From contig JAISAB010000011.1 in the NCBI GenBank assembly GCA_031266915.1, positions 1 to 35,639 on the forward strand: 35,639 bases of DNA, in the 5' to 3' direction. The translations under genes and the position numbers were made by a program. Below, in pieces: positions 11,998 to 22,182 of the stretch (positions are counted from its first letter, which is position 1; each line of letters begins with the position of its first letter). The DNA is from Rickettsiales bacterium. GTDB lineage: Bacteria > Pseudomonadota > Alphaproteobacteria > Rs-D84. The notes under the pieces are model-generated. The model had not been told where the DNA came from, made no database searches, and worked only from the letters and a program-made list of their open reading frames with translations.

Positions 11998-12284
11998 TGA
12001 ATCCAAAGGGATTTGGGTTCGGGGCCTTCAAAAAGCCCACGTTAAAGCAATGCGAATCTTCGTGTTGTTATCCGCCTGATGGAACTGCGGCGCGGAAAGC
12101 GCCTTTTGTTTTATCGGGAACACCCCGCTTTTAGGCCGGGGAGCCGCCGGTTATACAACAGTCCGGGCACTGCTTGCGGTGCTGGACAAAGACCGGCGGG
12201 GTCATACTTTAACGTGATTTTTTGAACTCCCCGACCGCCAAATTCTTTTGGCGGTTTCTTTTTGCACAAAACGGGGGCTTTGCA
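11998..12284 (+). ncRNA. Structured 5' leader RNA, copy 1 (candidate riboswitch-like element)
   Basis: Hairpins in order: GAATCC/GGGTTC (11999-12004 with 12015-12020), then GGGC-CTTCAAAAA-GCCC (12022-12038). Later come CCCCG/CGGGG (about 12123-12141) and a P1 helix CCGCCGGT/ACCGGCGG (12144-12151 with 12192-12199). A pseudoknot pairs loop TTCAAAAA (12027-12034) with TTTTTGAA (12219-12226). The anti-SD strand CCCCG (12229-12233) can pair either with CGGGG at 12197-12201, partly inside P1, or with CGGGG of the ribosome site (12272-12276). Between them is a terminator-like hairpin, ACCGCCAAA/TTTGGCGGT (12234-12255). Copy 2 (17483-17765) keeps all these elements with compensatory changes. The ligand or signal is unknown. 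Confidence 0.8.
12234..12263 (+). terminator. Terminator-like hairpin inside leader 1
   Basis: A perfect 9-bp stem with a 4-base loop is followed by a U-rich stretch (TTTCTTTTTG). It lies between the anti-SD strand and the ribosome site of the 12285 gene, so it could act as a transcriptional attenuator. Confidence 0.75.
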
Positions 12285-12995
12285 ATGAGTTTAAGATTTA
12301 TGAATTTAAAGAATGTGATTCCGGCGGTGATAATCGCGGTAATTTGCGCGGGCGTTCCCGGGCCGTCTTTCGGAGATAATTGGTCGCCGTTTACAACGCT
12401 TTGCGGCGGACAATTAGTCCACAATGGCTCGGGCAGTTGTTATTCATGTGGAACAAATGTTTGCTCATCGTGTTCCAGCGCTTCAGCGAATTGTACCAGC
12501 TGCACTACTACCAATTCAGGCGGCAGCATGGGCGTCAGCTTATATTATTATTTCACATGTCAAAACGGCTTCTGGAGTCCTGTTGACAATAGCGCGTCAG
12601 GATCTTCATCCTGCAGTGGGACGGAAACTTGCGATTGCAATCTCTACGACCCCGACGACGACAGCGTAAGCGGTTATGGAACCGGCACGGTTTCGAAAAC
12701 AGGCACTTTGCCGAACTGCAGTTTCGATTGCTCTACAGTCCAAACATGCAAATGGAATAGTTGCATCAGCGGATATTACCCTTACGGAGCCAGTTCTTAT
12801 ATGCCCGAGGGTTGCAAGAAATGCCCGAATTATTCGACCGACTGGACGTCGAACGGCGGCACAGTGAAAAGCGAATATAGTCATAACAACGGTTATTACA
12901 TCGGCATAGCTTCCTGCTATGTCAGTGGAAATTTCTCAGACACGACCGGGAATTTCACGATAAGCGGAACCAGCTGCACTTATTCTTCCAATTAA
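12285..12995 (+). CDS. Secreted cysteine-rich protein A, 236 residues
   Basis: I start at ATG 12285, seven bases after GGGGG. The N-terminus MSLRFMNLKNVIPAVIIAVI with cleavage near PSFG-D is a Sec signal peptide. The mature part is rich in Cys, Ser, Thr and Tyr, with many CxxC or near-CxxC pairs (CSSCSSASANCTSC, CKKCP). It ends in a module GNFSDTTGNFTISGTSC that resembles GTYTDDTGTYDLSGTC of the 17766 product, as does a shared GYY...C..CP block. It is probably an exported, disulphide-bonded surface or extracellular protein; function unknown. Expression is likely controlled by the structured leader upstream. A long hairpin follows the stop. Confidence 0.82.
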   Translation: MSLRFMNLKNVIPAVIIAVICAGVPGPSFGDNWSPFTTLCGGQLVHNGSGSCYSCGTNVCSSCSSASANCTSCTTTNSGGSMGVSLYYYFTCQNGFWSPVDNSASGSSSCSGTETCDCNLYDPDDDSVSGYGTGTVSKTGTLPNCSFDCSTVQTCKWNSCISGYYPYGASSYMPEGCKKCPNYSTDWTSNGGTVKSEYSHNNGYYIGIASCYVSGNFSDTTGNFTISGTSCTYSSN

Positions 12996-17193: not shown

Positions 17194-17447
17194 AAAATTC
17201 CCGCTTGGACCACCCACGAAAATCCGGCTGGTTTTCGCGGGGCCCGGTGGCGGGAATCCCTTGTATGTATTATTTTTGGCTCAACTGACAGAAAAATATC
17301 TTTTTCAAACAAATCTTTGCAATAGCTGTGTCATCCCGTGGCTTGACCACGGGATGACACAGCAAGGAATAACGAGTTCTTTGCATGTCAATCGGGCGAA
17401 GATTGAACAAATCTTAAATCCATAAATCTGAAATCTTAAATTCTATG
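17194..17447. repeat. Spacer with two palindromic repeats
   Basis: There is no gene. The first palindrome is 'attcccgc...gcgggaat' (about 17197-17258). The second is a 17-bp perfect inverted repeat, GCTGTGTCATCCCGTGG / CCACGGGATGACACAGC (17325-17341 with 17347-17363). This type is common in Rickettsiales-like genomes and also occurs at 21136-21188. The right end carries 'aatcttaaatccataaatctgaaatcttaaatt' quasi-tandem repeats (17408-17443). Confidence 0.75.
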
Positions 17448-17482: not shown

Positions 17483-17765
17483 CGAATCCATAGGGAATGG
17501 GTTCGGGTCCTTCAAAAAGACCATATAATCGGCAGCAATGTAAAAATTGCTGCAATCCCGCACAGCAACAGCGGGCTTTATGCCCGATTTTTGTTGCATC
17601 CCCGCTTGGTCGGGGGGCTGTTGGTTATAAAATAGTCTCGGCTGCGCTTGCGCGGACGAGTCGAAGACCAACGGGGTCATTCGATTATATGATTTTTTGA
17701 ACCTCCCGACCGCCAATTTCCCTTGGCGGTTTTTTGATTCTATACAAAAAAAAGGGAGATATAAG
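17483..17765 (+). ncRNA. Structured 5' leader RNA, copy 2
   Basis: It is homologous to 11998-12284. Hairpin A is GAATCC/GGGTTC (17484-17489 with 17499-17504). Hairpin B is GGTC-CTTCAAAAA-GACC (17506-17522), where GGGC/GCCC of copy 1 has become GGTC/GACC. P1 is CTGTTGGT/ACCAACGG (17618-17625 with 17667-17674), replacing CCGCCGGT/ACCGGCGG. The pseudoknot pairs TTCAAAAA (17511-17518) with TTTTTGAA (17694-17701). The anti-SD strand CTCCC (17703-17707) pairs perfectly with the ribosome site GGGAG (17754-17758) or, overlapping, TCCCG with CGGGG at 17672-17676. The 3' block TGATTTTTTGAAC is identical in both copies. It lies directly upstream of the secreted protein at 17766. Confidence 0.82.
17709..17736 (+). 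terminator. Terminator-like hairpin inside leader 2
   Basis: ACCGCCAA-tttccc-TTGGCGGT followed by TTTTT. It occupies the same position as in leader 1, between the anti-SD strand and the ribosome site. Confidence 0.8.
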
Positions 17766-18278
17766 ATGAAAAAAATCATCGCGGCATTGATGCTGACGCT
17801 GCTTGTCGCAACAGATTTGATGGCCGACACAGCCTATGTTGGTACGGTTGACACTATTTGCTATACAGGCCCATCTTACGGAGATTATCGCGAGCTAAAC
17901 ACTGCGTACGATTATGTGAATATTACCTACACTCGGTCCGATGGAAATCATTTTTTTACCTGCACTATCAATAGCTATGCCTGCAGACCAGACAAAAGCT
18001 ACTCAAGTGATGGCTGCACAGATTGTCCAACGGGCTCGGTTGCCACTCCTACCGGAAAAGGCTATAATTCCACCATCGACCCGATTTGCAGATACTGCAT
18101 TATGGGATATTACCGGGACGTCGTCCTTGGTGCGTGCGTGGCATGTCCGTACGGCGGAACTTCCAGTAATCGTCCGGAAGACAATTCCAACATAATCGCG
18201 TGTTCTCAAGAAGCCGGCACATACACCGACGACACGGGAACCTATGACCTAAGCGGCACATGCAATTACGAAGAATAG
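17766..18278 (+). CDS. Secreted cysteine-rich protein B, 170 residues
   Basis: The ATG at 17766 follows GGGAG by seven bases. The signal peptide MKKIIAALMLTLLVATDLMA is cut before DTAYVG. The mature part has many cysteines, arranged as ACRPDKSYSSDGCTDCPTG, CRYCIMGYY and CVACPYGGTSS, similar to TNFR/EGF-like 'CxxCPxG' modules. The end GTYTDDTGTYDLSGTCNY matches the C-terminal module of protein A (12285). It is most likely an exported disulphide-rich surface protein. Leader RNA 2 ends at its start codon, so the gene appears to be under the same control as protein A. Confidence 0.82.
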   Translation: MKKIIAALMLTLLVATDLMADTAYVGTVDTICYTGPSYGDYRELNTAYDYVNITYTRSDGNHFFTCTINSYACRPDKSYSSDGCTDCPTGSVATPTGKGYNSTIDPICRYCIMGYYRDVVLGACVACPYGGTSSNRPEDNSNIIACSQEAGTYTDDTGTYDLSGTCNYEE

Positions 18279-18321: not shown

Positions 18322-18588
18322 TAAAGAATAAAGAAAAAAGAATAGAGAATAAATATATGCTCGGTCTAAGTTCCCCTCCCTTGGAAAGGTGGCATGCGTA
18401 GCATGACGGGATGGTTTGAGGCTTCGAGATTAAACTCTTATTCTCTAACCACCTCCCCGTCTGCCTTCGTTCGTCGCCGCCGCCGCGGCGTCCGAACTTC
18501 GGCGCGACGGTACTCCTCCACAGGAGGAGAACTTAGACCGAGCATATATTTATTCTTTATTCTTTATTATTTATTCTTTATTTTATTA
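18322..18588. repeat. MITE-like element with about 50-bp inverted ends
   Basis: The left end 'agaataaa...atatatgctcggtctaagttc' (about 18322-18371) and the right end 'gaacttagaccgagcatatatttattct...' (about 18530-18588) are inverted copies. They enclose about 160 bp with 'cctcccttgg...', 'acctccccgtctgcc' and 'ctcctccacaggaggag' palindromes. There is no transposase. The outer part of the ends is the AGAATAA/TTTATTC heptad repeat. It fills the gap between the secreted protein and the phage cluster. Confidence 0.7.
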
Positions 18589-18835
18589 CCGCGGCTTTAA
18601 TCAGCGTGACGTCTTCCTTGATTCCGTCGATTTTCATTTTCAACTGCCCTATTCCCGATTCCAAAACGGCGGCGCGGTTTTCCAGCGCTGTGATTCGGAC
18701 TTCGTCTTTCTGCACATAGGCCATCGACGAATCCTGGCGCGCGGCCCAGTACACCAGGCCGCCTACGAACATAATTAAAAACCAACTGCCGCGCAGAAAA
18801 TCAATTATTCCTGTTATGCTCTGTTTTTCTATCAT
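18578..18835 (-). CDS. Small membrane/coiled-coil phage protein, 85 residues
   Basis: It has one membrane helix (SWFLIMFVGGLVYWAAR, about residues 17-33) and then a coiled coil with heptad-like spacing (VRITALENRAAVLESGIGQLKMKIDGIKEDV) to the end. The topology resembles small phage holin- or spanin-associated proteins and 'membrane anchor plus coiled coil' proteins often found near portal genes. It is the last gene of the minus-strand phage cluster. The ribosome site is poor, because the upstream spacer is filled with 'ttactaggtacttggtactggg' repeats (18848-18885). The function is unknown. Confidence 0.65.
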   Translation of the reverse strand: MIEKQSITGIIDFLRGSWFLIMFVGGLVYWAARQDSSMAYVQKDEVRITALENRAAVLESGIGQLKMKIDGIKEDVTLIKAAVIK

Positions 18836-18847
18836 GTATTTTATTAA

Positions 18848-18885
18848 TAGTTACTAGGTACTTGGTACTGGGTACTAGTGACTAT
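18848..18885. repeat. 'actaggtacttggtactggg' quasi-tandem tract
   Basis: Degenerate units of about 8 bp (ggtactt, ggtactg, ggtacta) separate two phage genes that would normally be adjacent. Confidence 0.75.
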
Positions 18886-19076
18886 TTTCCCCTTTCTATT
18901 AAAGTTTCTATTTGATGAACCAGGGCGCGCTGGGCCTCCAGCGTGCGCAATTCGGCCTCGGTCGCGGTGGCGCCCAAAAAGCGCTCGATGGTAATTTTGC
19001 GCAGGTGCCGCAGCACGGCCGTGCCCGCGGGCGCCGCGAAGCATCGCGCGAAGTCTTTTTCGATTTCCGTTTTCAT
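18882..19076 (-). CDS. Bbp19-like small phage protein
   Basis: This 64-residue protein has the pattern F-(A)-R-C-F-x-x-P-x-G-x-x-V-L-R-H-L early, and LRTLEAQRALVHQIETLIERG at the end. It matches the small Bbp19-like proteins that accompany portal and terminase genes in T7-like phages of alpha- and betaproteobacteria. The role of that family is unknown; the position suggests a part in head assembly or packaging. The start has AAGGAAC upstream and lies 13 bases after the portal stop. Confidence 0.75.
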   Translation of the reverse strand: MKTEIEKDFARCFAAPAGTAVLRHLRKITIERFLGATATEAELRTLEAQRALVHQIETLIERGK

Positions 19077-19089
19077 TTTCGCGTTCCTT

Positions 19090-20313
19090 TTATAAAATAG
19101 TGTCTTGTTTGGTCATCAATACAATCGGTGCGACGTATTTTAATTCCGCGTCCGAGTGCAGCGAAATCCGCTCAATCAATCCGCGACGCGACAGGATTTG
19201 CAATCCGCGCTCGCACATTGGGCGAATGAATTCGTGCAGCAGCCGGCCGTACGTCGCCCCCAGCACGCGCATCATTTCCGCGTTGCGCGCCAGGACTTCG
19301 GTCGCCGTCATTTCGCGGTCCGATAACAGGCCCAGTCTGTCCGCCAGCAGCGAATGCCTGATTCGGTCGCGCAAATCACCCAGAATAATCTGGGACACGT
19401 CGAAGTCCGCGCCGCTGGACAAAGGCGTCAGGCCGGAACTGCCGACCGCTTTTGGAATAATCGCGCCCGGCGTCAGATTGATGTTGGACAGGTTGATAAC
19501 GCCATCGTCGTCCGCCTGCCAGATGCCGCTGACGGCAATCGTCGCGTTTTTCAATACCAATTCGACGACCTTGTTCGCCGTTTTGATGTCCGGCAAAGCG
19601 CGCAGAATTGGGCCGCGGCCGTATTGTTCGCCGCTGGCGACGGACCAGCGGAAAATAATGTAGGGATTCGTTTCGAATATTCCGGTTGATACGATGTTGT
19701 TCTCGATGTCACCGCCGACATCCAGCCAGGCCGTGAATTCCTGGCCGATCAGGGCCTGGACCAGTTTCAGCGGCGTTTGGGGATTGTTTCGAATCGTATC
19801 GCGCATGTCCACCGGCGGCGTCCATTCGGGATACTTTTCCATAACGTCGGCCGCAGACATTGATGTCGTGTGAAACACTGCGTTCGGCAGAATCGCGATG
19901 TCAGCCATCGGAATCGCAGTGAATGAAAATGCGCTGTCGGAACCGATTGGATTTTCAGACATAAACAGACATGCGGTGCCCAGGATAATCAAATCCAAAT
20001 AGCATTGATGAACGGTCGTGTAAAAATTCGAATCGTTCAGGTGCGCGCGCAAGACCCGGGCCGCGGCGTCCGCGTCCGGCGACAAGTCGCTTTCGCGGAC
20101 CAGTTCCAGCCAGGCCGATTCCGGCGGCGTCAGCAGCGAATAGATGCTGGCGGCCAGATTGTCCGCCGCGTCGCCGGCGGTCGCGTCGAACAGGGTCGCC
20201 GCATCGTCGTCCGCCAGCGGCATGGTATAACGCTGTGCCTGTTCCCATCGGGTTATCCACGGCGCGCGGGCGTCCATGGCGTTTTTATAAAGTTGCAAAA
20301 GTTGTTTGTGCAT
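19090..20313 (-). CDS. Portal (head-tail connector) protein, podovirus type
   Basis: Portal proteins form the dodecameric ring through which DNA enters the head. This one is 407 residues; T7 gp8 and relatives are about 500-560, so it is shortened. It has the family features: an N-terminal WITRWEQAQRYTMP, an ASIYSLLTPPESAWLEL block (about residues 55-69), the RWSVASGEQYGRGP segment (about residues 219-232), and MTATEVLARNAEMMRVLGATYGRLLHEFI (about residues 338-366), a hallmark of T7-type connectors. No stop or frameshift occurs. The start has AAAGGAAC. It is divergent from leader RNA 3. Confidence 0.92.
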   Translation of the reverse strand: MHKQLLQLYKNAMDARAPWITRWEQAQRYTMPLADDDAATLFDATAGDAADNLAASIYSLLTPPESAWLELVRESDLSPDADAAARVLRAHLNDSNFYTTVHQCYLDLIILGTACLFMSENPIGSDSAFSFTAIPMADIAILPNAVFHTTSMSAADVMEKYPEWTPPVDMRDTIRNNPQTPLKLVQALIGQEFTAWLDVGGDIENNIVSTGIFETNPYIIFRWSVASGEQYGRGPILRALPDIKTANKVVELVLKNATIAVSGIWQADDDGVINLSNINLTPGAIIPKAVGSSGLTPLSSGADFDVSQIILGDLRDRIRHSLLADRLGLLSDREMTATEVLARNAEMMRVLGATYGRLLHEFIRPMCERGLQILSRRGLIERISLHSDAELKYVAPIVLMTKQDTIL

Positions 20314-20343
20314 ATATGTTCCTTTTTTTATTTAAAAATCGCC

Positions 20344-20372
20344 TTGCAAAATGCGCGGCGGTCGGATATAAT
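20344..20372 (+). promoter_or_regulatory. Promoter of leader RNA 3
   Basis: TTGCAA (20344-20349), 17 bases, TATAAT (20367-20372). It is identical in both boxes and spacer length to the promoter at 2576-2604, with a start near 20379. Confidence 0.85.
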
Positions 20373-20378
20373 TTCTTT

Positions 20379-20569
20379 GTCGCAGGGTGTTCCTGCGGCG
20401 GGGCGTAGAAACCCTTTCTTTAGCGTCGATAAAGACGAAAAAACTCCAACCGTTGGTTGGAGGACTCCCGAATATATCGAATAGGGCGTGCAATTCTAAA
20501 GATTGTTTCTAACCTCCAACCACCACATTCGTCGGTGGTTTTTTACTTGCCGAAAAATGGAGGTCTTGA
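20379..20569 (+). ncRNA. Structured 5' leader RNA, copy 3 (diverged)
   Basis: The primary sequence is unlike copies 1 and 2, but the order of elements is the same. Hairpin A is CGCAGG-gtgtt-CCTGCG (20381-20397). Hairpin B is a GGG/CCC stem with loop CGTAGAAA (20401-20414), whose TAGAAA (20406-20411) pairs with TTTCTA (20506-20511). The P1-like hairpin CTCCAACC-gtt-GGTTGGAG spans 20444-20462. The anti-SD strand ACCTCC (20512-20517) pairs perfectly with the ribosome site GGAGGT (20559-20564). GGTTGGAGG (20455-20463) can instead pair with CCTCCAACC (20513-20521), breaking both the SD-blocking helix and the terminator stem. This gives two clear, mutually exclusive states. Confidence 0.8.
20518..20545 (+). 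terminator. Terminator-like hairpin inside leader 3
   Basis: AACCACC-(9-base loop)-GGTGGTT followed by a U run (20539-20544). The 5' arm overlaps the strand that can pair with GGTTGGAGG, so an antiterminator form exists. Confidence 0.8.
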
Positions 20570-21103
20570 ATGAAAAAATCAACCATAATAGCTTTACTTG
20601 TCTGGGCGGTTGTATTCCAAGGCGTTTTTGCAGATGTAGTTACAGTTTCAGATATTACCGGAAGTTATGAAACTGATGGTTTTGAGATTTCGACCCCGGA
20701 AACCGACTACGAAAATGGCATATATACGACTTATAATACCGGGGCGCAATACTTGTCCTCTAAATACTATAAAGGTCAGATTGTTGATATTTATACTTAT
20801 TACTTATATGCTGATATAAACGATTATCTTATTCAAAGCGTATGCGCTTCTGGAGGTGGCGATTATGCCGAGTGGAGTTGTGATGTTCCAAGGACTAATC
20901 TTGATAATAATCCTAGTGATGACGAAATATATTGCTATTGCCGTTTGAAGAGAATAAGTGATAATGTTAGCTCTGTCGGTTGGGTCTTCTTCGCGGGCAA
21001 CACGGTCGACTATTGCGCGAGGCTCTGCGCGCATGATTGCGCGTACTACGTCAGCGAGCAGCCCGACTTCGTGTCTGCGTTATTAGCACCATTCGAACCC
21101 TAA
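20570..21103 (+). CDS. Secreted cysteine-rich protein C, 177 residues
   Basis: The signal peptide MKKSTIIALLVWAVVFQGVFA is cut before DVVTVS. The ribosome site GGAGGT lies five bases before the ATG. The mature protein is Tyr-, Asp- and Ser-rich in its first half. The second half carries CYCRLKRIS, GWVFFAGNTVDYCARLCAHDCAYYV and ends SALLAPFEP. The same pattern (CxCR, WV, DC..xC, CA..C, SAL(F/L)A.P) is found in the product at 34920-35417, so these two form one family of exported Cys-rich proteins. It lies on the plus strand between terminase and portal genes and was evidently inserted into the phage cluster together with its leader. Confidence 0.82.
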   Translation: MKKSTIIALLVWAVVFQGVFADVVTVSDITGSYETDGFEISTPETDYENGIYTTYNTGAQYLSSKYYKGQIVDIYTYYLYADINDYLIQSVCASGGGDYAEWSCDVPRTNLDNNPSDDEIYCYCRLKRISDNVSSVGWVFFAGNTVDYCARLCAHDCAYYVSEQPDFVSALLAPFEP

Positions 21104-21132
21104 CTCCTGTATGCATGACGCGCCGTGTGGCC

Positions 21133-21191
21133 GTTACCCCTAGCAGTGTCATCCCGGGGCTTGACCCAGGGATGACACTGCTAGGGGTGAC
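21133..21191. terminator. Long palindromic repeat, bidirectional terminator
   Basis: A perfect 20-bp inverted repeat (21136-21155 with 21169-21188), extendable to 23 pairs with one wobble, around a 13-base loop. It contains the GTCATCCC/GGGATGAC core shared with 17325-17363. It lies between the convergent secreted protein gene and terminase C-part. Confidence 0.8.
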
Positions 21192-21237
21192 GACAAGAGG
21201 GAATAATGTCGAAAAAGGTACATTCATATCACTTGGT

Positions 21238-22182
21238 TTAAACTTTAAAATCCGTCCTGGCTTTTAATATTTGTGCGCCCGCGGACAGCGGCCGAATCGG
21301 TATCGGTTGTATGCGCAGCGCGCCCGCAACCGCATCCAATCCGTCGTCATACTGTGACGCACCAAGCGGCGACCAGCCTAGCATTTCCGACAACAGCGGC
21401 GTGTTCGCAACCCGCCTGTGCGCATGCATCCGGCCAGTTGTCAGCAAGGGTTCTATGGAATCCAGGATTCGGGTCTCCTTTCTCTGGTGGTTGACGATTT
21501 TCTGAACGACGACGGGCTGGCCGCGCTTTTGCGCGGCCTTGCGCATGATTTCTGGCAAAGCGTTGCCGATGCCGTTGACCTCAATGGCGATTCTGTTGGT
21601 TCCGTGCCGGCGCATAAAATCCAAAACCGCGCCGCATTGCGTCGCCAACGGATGCAAGTCTTCGTCGGACACCGTCAAATATAAAATATCGTGGATAAAA
21701 ACGCGCCTGTTTCTGTCGTCGCGGTAAATCAGGACGCAGACGCTGCCGTCGGATTTGACGCGTCCGCCCGACGGGTCCCAGTACATGGCCATACCCGTTA
21801 AGGTGAAAGAGCGAAGAGCGCAGAGCGAAGGTGATTCGTTATTATTAACATCTTCCACCTGCGACCTGCGCTCTACGCTCTGCCGCGAAGCGGCAAGGCG
21901 CTCTTCCACCTCTATTGTTGCGGTTCCGGGATTGAATTCGCCGCTGTAAAAATGCAGAGCGCCAGGGTCCAAGCGCGCTTTTTCCTCGCTGATATATTCC
22001 AGCATCATCTGCGACGAAAAATGCCGCGCGCCCACGGTTTCGCGCAATTGTTCGACCTTGCTCAGCGGGAACAGCTGCGGCCAGGCCGGCGTTCCGTCGG
22101 AATCCACAATCGGAATTTTCAATTCCCGATACCCGATTAAAAAAGGGGTTGAATTTTCAAAACTTTGATATACTCTAGACAT
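21238..22182 (-). CDS. Terminase large subunit, C-terminal nuclease part
   Basis: This 314-residue product corresponds to the part of podovirus-type TerL after the ATPase domain. The RNase H-like nuclease has its metal-binding acids in place: YWDPSGG (Asp136), AIEVNGIGN (Glu201) and YDDGLDAVAGAL (Asp279-283). The first 75 residues (FLIGYRELKIPIVDSDG, SSQMMLEY) are the normal linker region. A new ATG with no in-frame extension upstream starts the gene. Residues of about 92-126 are an insertion coded by 'gagcgaagagcgcagagcg' repeats and their inverted counterpart (21808-21910), yet the frame is kept. The matching ATPase part lies at 25845-26450, 3.7 kb away. Confidence 0.88.
   Translation of the reverse strand: MSRVYQSFENSTPFLIGYRELKIPIVDSDGTPAWPQLFPLSKVEQLRETVGARHFSSQMMLEYISEEKARLDPGALHFYSGEFNPGTATIEVEERLAASRQSVERRSQVEDVNNNESPSLCALRSFTLTGMAMYWDPSGGRVKSDGSVCVLIYRDDRNRRVFIHDILYLTVSDEDLHPLATQCGAVLDFMRRHGTNRIAIEVNGIGNALPEIMRKAAQKRGQPVVVQKIVNHQRKETRILDSIEPLLTTGRMHAHRRVANTPLLSEMLGWSPLGASQYDDGLDAVAGALRIQPIPIRPLSAGAQILKARTDFKV
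21808..21910. repeat. Inverted short-repeat insert within the terminase nuclease gene
   Basis: 'gagcgaagagcgcagagcgaag' at the left and 'gcgctctacgctctgccgc...ggcgctcttcc' at the right form an imperfect inverted repeat of GAGCG-type units. It adds about 35 residues between the linker and the first catalytic Asp, in frame. Confidence 0.75.

Follow-up and report, generated by a model that had tools for sequence, protein, structure and literature searches.

The leader at positions 20379-20569 of the window (the whole stretch of 35,639 nt from a Rickettsiales bacterium that was analysed here), referred to as leader 3, is probably a C4-type antisense riboregulator (estimated probability about 0.72), i.e. 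an untranslated self-targeting module transcribed ahead of its own gene. By sequence comparison, leader 3 is a divergent relative of sRNA-Xcc1 (RF02221), and sRNA-Xcc1 and these leaders together are concluded to be C4-type antisense riboregulators; no earlier statement equating sRNA-Xcc1 with C4 was found in the open-access literature. Its own promoter match, the pairings and their covariation, the sharing of strands, the gene context and the copy number were all observed directly and are described below.

All the features of leader 3 are located on the forward strand. The promoter match (20344..20372) consists of TTGCAA at 20344, a 17 nt spacer and TATAAT at 20367, with 10/12 in a consensus scan; TATAAT-like boxes were also recognized by eye upstream of hairpin A in other copies, and hairpin A is the expected position of the transcript start, as predicted from the sequence. 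Hairpin A (20381..20397) is formed by CGCAGG (20381-20386) and CCTGCG (20392-20397), and is followed by hairpin B (20400..20415; stem GGGG/CCCT), the loop of which is TAGAAA (a1, 20406..20411; partner a', 20506-20511). Then come TCTTTAG (b1, 20417..20423; partner b', 20496-20502), a small hairpin C (20424..20437; CGTC/GACG) that was derived from the sequence and is not kept in every copy, and the strand CTCCAACC (uP1, 20444..20451), with which the P1 5' strand can alternatively pair. The C4-like/sRNA-Xcc1-like body (20455..20521; RF02221, 30.3 bits) contains P1, P2 and P3. The main helix P1 pairs GGTTGGAGG with CCTCCAACC (20455-20463/20513-20521), P3 is 20491-20494/20502-20505 with CTAAAGA as its loop (b', 20496..20502), and GTTTCTA (a', 20505..20511) runs on into the anti-SD strand ACCTCC. 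The intrinsic terminator with its U-run (20518..20540) is made of AACCACC (20518-20524) and GGTGGTT (20534-20540) and then a T-run, its 5' arm having AACC in common with the end of P1'. The Shine-Dalgarno sequence GGAGGT (20559..20564) is an a2-like target, with b2 not clear, and can form the SD helix ACCTCC/GGAGGT (20512-20517/20559-20564). The gene behind the leader (20570..21103) encodes a 177-aa predicted secreted protein without any Pfam match, and its closest paralogue (52% identical) likewise stands behind a leader (L017).

The first-pass annotation had named hairpins A and B, TAGAAA/TTTCTA, a P1-like hairpin (CTCCAACC/GGTTGGAG, 20444-20451/20455-20462), a terminator stem and an SD helix, and all of them were found again. 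Its placement of the pseudoknot strand immediately before the anti-SD strand holds in all subtypes, and the same architecture with rewritten bases, which it had described for three copies, extends far beyond these, with compensatory change in every helix of both subtypes. The second loop pairing (TCTTTAG/CTAAAGA) and the main helix P1 were absent from that annotation, as were the competition for strands, the identity of the RNA, and the kinship with sRNA-Xcc1 and C4.

The RNA 20379-20545 was predicted to fold at -65.4 kcal/mol, compared with a mean of -43.7 kcal/mol for 200 dinucleotide shuffles (z = -5.2; 0/200 as good). Column counts were made for 17 subtype II leaders, to which leader 3 belongs, and gave 88.9% paired cells for the whole structure vs 75.2% after shuffling; the whole-structure covariation was 0.437 vs 0.205 shuffled (0/500), and 0.06-0.16 when the structure was slid. 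P1 was the best conserved helix (100% paired), followed by a1/a' (99%, with two-sided changes in 3/6 pairs), hairpin B (95.6%), the alternative uP1/P1 hairpin (89.7%), the terminator (84.3%) and hairpin A (81.6%, with two-sided changes in 6/6 pairs), and the SD helix was the weakest element (53.7%).

For the own-vs-other test, the strands of each leader were paired with its own partner and, as the control, with the partners of all the other leaders (5000 permutations, without correction for shared ancestry among copies). In the discovery set, the strand 5' of P1' matched the upstream region of its own leader over 7.13 bp vs 5.39 bp for the others, and the P3 loop matched the strand after hairpin B over 7.52 vs 4.33 bp (both 0/5000). 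Within each subtype, a1/a', b1/b' and uP1/P1 all showed an excess for the own partner (0-1/5000); for b1/b' within type II the values were 7.18 vs 4.41 bp (0/5000), and uP1/P1 within type II likewise reached 0/5000. Differences between subtypes are therefore no explanation, since both loop pairings reached 0/5000 within subtypes. The pairings were also kept in homologues: the two loop pairings gave 6.67 vs 4.59 and 7.19 vs 4.25 bp (0/5000) in 36 loci that only the new models had retrieved, in which uP1 gave 6.11 vs 4.09 bp (0/5000), and 6.57 vs 4.52 and 6.80 vs 4.25 bp (0/5000) in 79 public-genome loci fetched by P1 sequence alone. A recent duplication of the leaders is ruled out by the rewriting of the helices through compensatory changes, and conserved function, which had been proposed in its place, is supported. 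The pairing of a' with its own SD was above chance within subtypes (6/5000 and, for type II, 13/5000), and b' of type II showed no own-partner excess toward its own SD (3217/5000). A b2 copy in leader 3 is accordingly no more than an imperfect match by eye, without statistical support.

Several of these elements cannot coexist. P1, the P1-like hairpin, the terminator and the SD helix all compete for shared strands: the uP1 hairpin and P1 are mutually exclusive because both use the one P1 5' strand, and P1 and the full terminator are mutually exclusive because the 5' arm of the latter begins inside P1'. An intrinsic terminator directly 3' of the body, with its 5' arm starting inside P1', was found in 45/54 leaders of the lineage, and any terminator between body and SD in 2/30 canonical loci (see below). 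Since the added terminator overlaps P1 bases, leader 3 is a probable attenuator. The nested energies of leader 3 (without pseudoknot terms) were -68.0, -67.3, -67.7 and -60.8 kcal/mol for the folds with uP1, the SD helix, the terminator and P1, respectively; being close, they leave both folds plausible, and the direction of switching cannot be read from them.

At its cut-offs, Rfam reported only two tRNAs in the whole window. At a lax threshold, full-model matches to RF02221 (cut-off 53 bits) were obtained for leader 1 (36.2 bits), leader 2 (36.6 bits) and leader 3, and there were 27 such matches in the genome (1.09 Mb, 26 contigs). Leader 1 (11999..12284, core 12134-12259) and leader 2 (17484..17765, core 17608-17734), both on the forward strand, represent subtype I, and leader 3 represents subtype II; a few odd ones exist besides. 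Covariance models were made from the subtype cores (R1 for subtype I and R2 for subtype II). R1 scored 98.3 bits for leader 1 and 102.4 bits for leader 2, and R2 scored 87.2 bits (E 4.8e-18) for leader 3, which is among its training sequences. With the subtype models, 86 separate positions across the whole genome were matched at E up to 0.01, or 88 once the RF02221 set was added; these are matches and not proven transcripts, and some weak ones are possibly terminator-like chance matches. Gene starts and orientation at the loci were assigned by script and by eye. Both subtypes occur in dozens of copies, in this genome and across its family. Nearly all genomes of the same family carry copies, from 1 to a few tens each, and the window's genome has the highest copy number among the genomes searched. 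One relative in the family exceeds the sRNA-Xcc1 cut-off (58 bits), and relative G035 and the window's genome are of the same family. The genus Candidatus Enterousia, placed in the order and family Rs-D84, has reduced genomes, and its members are predicted obligate symbionts or parasites (PMC12306168). A third subtype without a terminator (L016 and L021; P1 GGCGGGAUU) was also seen, one member preceding a lipoprotein-like gene, and two pairs of leaders (L008/L022 and L007/L024) stand back to back, 300-600 bases apart.

The copies mostly precede genes for predicted secreted proteins, many of them Cys-rich with a common C-terminal motif D-TG-F...C (signal peptides were called by eye, without a predictor); a minority precede genes for Stealth, PAP2, HTH and other proteins. 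The genes behind leader 1 (12285-12995) and leader 2 (17766-18278) both encode secreted Cys-rich proteins. In the genome, 28 matches to this Cys-rich family were counted. Among its members without an RF02221 match, a leader was recognized by eye upstream in 10/14 inspected, and one further member (C13:881) has a model match just upstream.

In its surroundings, leader 3 with its gene lies, like a moron, between the terminase and the portal of a minus-strand prophage remnant (18578-22182; Bbp19-like protein, portal PF12236 with E 1.7e-78, T7-type terminase domain PF22530) and runs in the opposite direction. A palindromic dispersed repeat, TGTCATCCCG..CTTGACC..GGGATGACA, occurs at 17323-17375 and at 21123-21201, the latter copy lying directly 3' of the leader-3 gene, for which it could be the terminator. 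Just past the leader-2 gene, a 67-nt inverted repeat (18319-18385/18517-18583, 90% complementary) encloses 131 bases and looks like a small non-coding mobile element.

Leader 3 remains below the RF02221 cut-off for sRNA-Xcc1 (30.3 vs 53 bits), and in its body P1, P2, P3, the U-rich a' strand and P1' align over the full model. The canonical set comprised 30 loci outside the lineage, 29 from a phylum-wide search (best 83 bits) and one class-level relative. Hairpin B, the body and the two loop pairings are present in these loci, and canonical members resemble the leaders in having hairpins A and B together with the two loop pairings, none of which is in the Rfam model. They have no strong uP1, unlike leader 3. 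A P1-like upstream terminator was matched by a strict regular expression in 6/30 canonical loci vs 4/580 control windows and by a looser one in 21/29; the looser pattern was run without a control, so this shared hairpin is supporting evidence only. In canonical SD regions the strand after hairpin B is repeated, which allows pairing between the P3 loop and the SD (6.04 bp with its own SD vs 4.17 bp with others, 0/5000; an instance is L086, whose body strand GTCTTGTTGC pairs with GCAACAAGAC at the SD), and a repeat of the loop of hairpin B was also recognized there by eye. The downstream genes of canonical loci encode Bro-N (5/25), pRha, P22_AR_N, KilA-N and SymE proteins, and PHROG anti-repressors.

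In phage P1, the annotated order is a1, b1, c4 RNA, a2, b2 and icd/ant, and Rfam scored C4 (68.8 bits) and c4-a1b1 there. The order of promoter, hairpin A, hairpin B with a1, b1, body, SD and gene is common to the leaders, C4 of phages P1/P7 (RF01695) and c4-a1b1 (RF03163), and the phage P1 order a1-b1-[b'-a']-a2-b2 is matched by the sRNA-Xcc1 members, including the place of each strand. Hairpin A of leader 3 sits where hairpin 1 of c4-a1b1 sits in phage P1; a1 lies in the second of two hairpins, as in the C4 target a1-b1; and, as in C4, a hairpin loop holds b', and a' immediately precedes the closing strand. A bipartite antisense is common to both, as is a duplicated target, although its second copy is only weakly represented in the lineage of leader 3. 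Unlike C4, this lineage shows no b2, has an a2 that is only the SD and a few bases (weak but significant), and has gained a terminator overlapping P1', the uP1 strand and tens of chromosomal copies; the next gene is for a secreted protein, whereas C4 precedes an antirepressor operon. No RF01695 match was found for leader 3 at E up to 5, or for nine relatives at E up to 3. In Rfam, C4, c4-2 and c4-a1b1 form clan CL00128, and sRNA-Xcc1 is shown without a clan. C4, isrK and sRNA-Xcc1 occur next to one another in a Xylella genome (PMC12189769). At L066, a match resembling c4-2 RNA (2890-2958 on the minus strand; 34.8 bits vs a cut-off of 41) lies about 1.3 kb from an sRNA-Xcc1 leader with a P22_AR_N-type gene, probably two C4-class RNAs in one prophage. 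Two pattern scans of IMG/VR for exact leaders in phages gave one chance match in a coding frame (L088), and then none.

A resemblance of another kind is offered by IsrK/STnc1160 of Salmonella Gifsy-1, which gives a short terminated RNA and a read-through transcript in alternative folds, its trans-acting leader copy controlling translation of an antirepressor operon, with the P4 CI RNA system cited alongside (PMC4825925). What IsrK and P4 CI RNA would have in common with leader 3 is the short terminated leader RNA, the alternative folds and control in trans; IsrK is an RNA family different in sequence, and its short form stops before the antisense body.

The points against the C4-type reading are the sub-cut-off sRNA-Xcc1 score, the lack of a C4 match and of b2, the weak SD helix, downstream genes that are not antirepressors, and some copies without a near downstream gene. 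Unpaired bases of the P2 region that hardly vary (GAATA; TATAAAACA with GAAA), an exchange of strands among terminator, SD and uP1 that resembles an expression platform, and many copies ahead of one functional class of genes would all suit a metabolite riboswitch class, in which the conserved P2 internal loop binds the ligand; yet a1/a' and b1/b' are freely rewritten between copies, a pattern that fits antisense specificity better than a fixed pocket, and the canonical relatives control phage antirepressor genes and have b1 copies at the SD. A riboswitch of this kind, for which there are no binding data, is considered unlikely but is not ruled out. A known riboswitch or leader family is ruled out: no Rfam riboswitch family matched leader 3, and only sRNA-Xcc1 matched it besides chance matches.

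There is slight support for the reading in which leader 3 is a gene for a trans-acting small RNA and only happens to precede another gene, which is the published view of sRNA-Xcc1, an 88-nt RNA with mapped ends and unknown action (PMC2996969). The body is indeed followed by a terminator and several copies have no close downstream gene (body copies L009, L026, L163, L169, L172, L173 and L176 of the same genome, which are possibly orphan trans-acting RNAs or decayed units), but a' matches the SD of its own gene above chance, canonical b' does so even more, and the leader is directly upstream in most of the inspected members of the secreted Cys-rich family. It is very improbable that the structure is a hairpin by which a mobile cassette recombines or inserts and that its RNA features are secondary; although sRNA-Xcc1 is carried by integron cassettes (PMC12444791) and leader 3 with its gene is lodged on the opposite strand between phage terminase and portal, promoter, leader, terminator, SD and gene always follow one another in this order, and the compensatory changes include long-range pairs that are useless to a DNA hairpin site.

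For the C4-type riboregulator preferred here, the following mode of action is proposed; expression of the RNA, the direction of switching, action in trans and the trigger are all inferred, there being no RNA data for this uncultured organism. The upstream copy of the target (a1 in the hairpin B loop, then b1) pairs with two antisense strands of the folded, P1-closed body, namely b', which occupies the P3 loop, and a', which immediately precedes P1'. The antisense a', together with CCUCC of P1', may also pair with the SD of the gene itself. In this lineage the end of P1' doubles as the 5' arm of the terminator, and the P1 5' strand may be captured by uP1, an upstream copy of P1'. In the inferred fold T, the uP1 hairpin would free P1' for the full terminator or the SD helix, and the gene would be off; in the inferred fold R, P1 would be closed, the terminator shortened and the anti-SD strand hidden, and the gene would be on. 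Short C4 RNAs of phage P1 are known to act on sister transcripts in trans, and by inference from this and from IsrK the short terminated RNA of leader 3 probably also does so. Within this genome, the best match of each b' is the b1 of its own leader (median rank 1/22), and the copies would therefore be insulated from one another at that contact.

For sRNA-Xcc1, which has been known since 2010 and was regarded as acting in trans in an unknown way (PMC2996969), being grouped with the phage immunity RNAs of the C4 class supplies a testable mechanism. It travels with symE, upstream of which it stands, in the most widespread Xanthomonas integron cassette, where a "divergent regulatory mechanism" has been noted (PMC12444791). 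C4-type RNAs can evidently leave phages and multiply, to about 1 copy per 12 kb in one reduced alphaproteobacterial genome, and the about 88 natural variants are a ready source of independent RNA attenuators. Because the pairing code is rewritten in every copy, cross-talk and orthogonality can be tested directly, as can possible alternating expression. The leaders would, by inference, give control over most of a secreted-protein family. Tentatively, and with somewhat less than even confidence, an antisense RNA of the phage-immunity type may have been co-opted in this 1.1-Mb gut symbiont-type genome, its approximately 88 copies serving as insulated attenuators, one per secreted-protein gene, that would let the surface and secreted repertoire be expressed independently or in turn.
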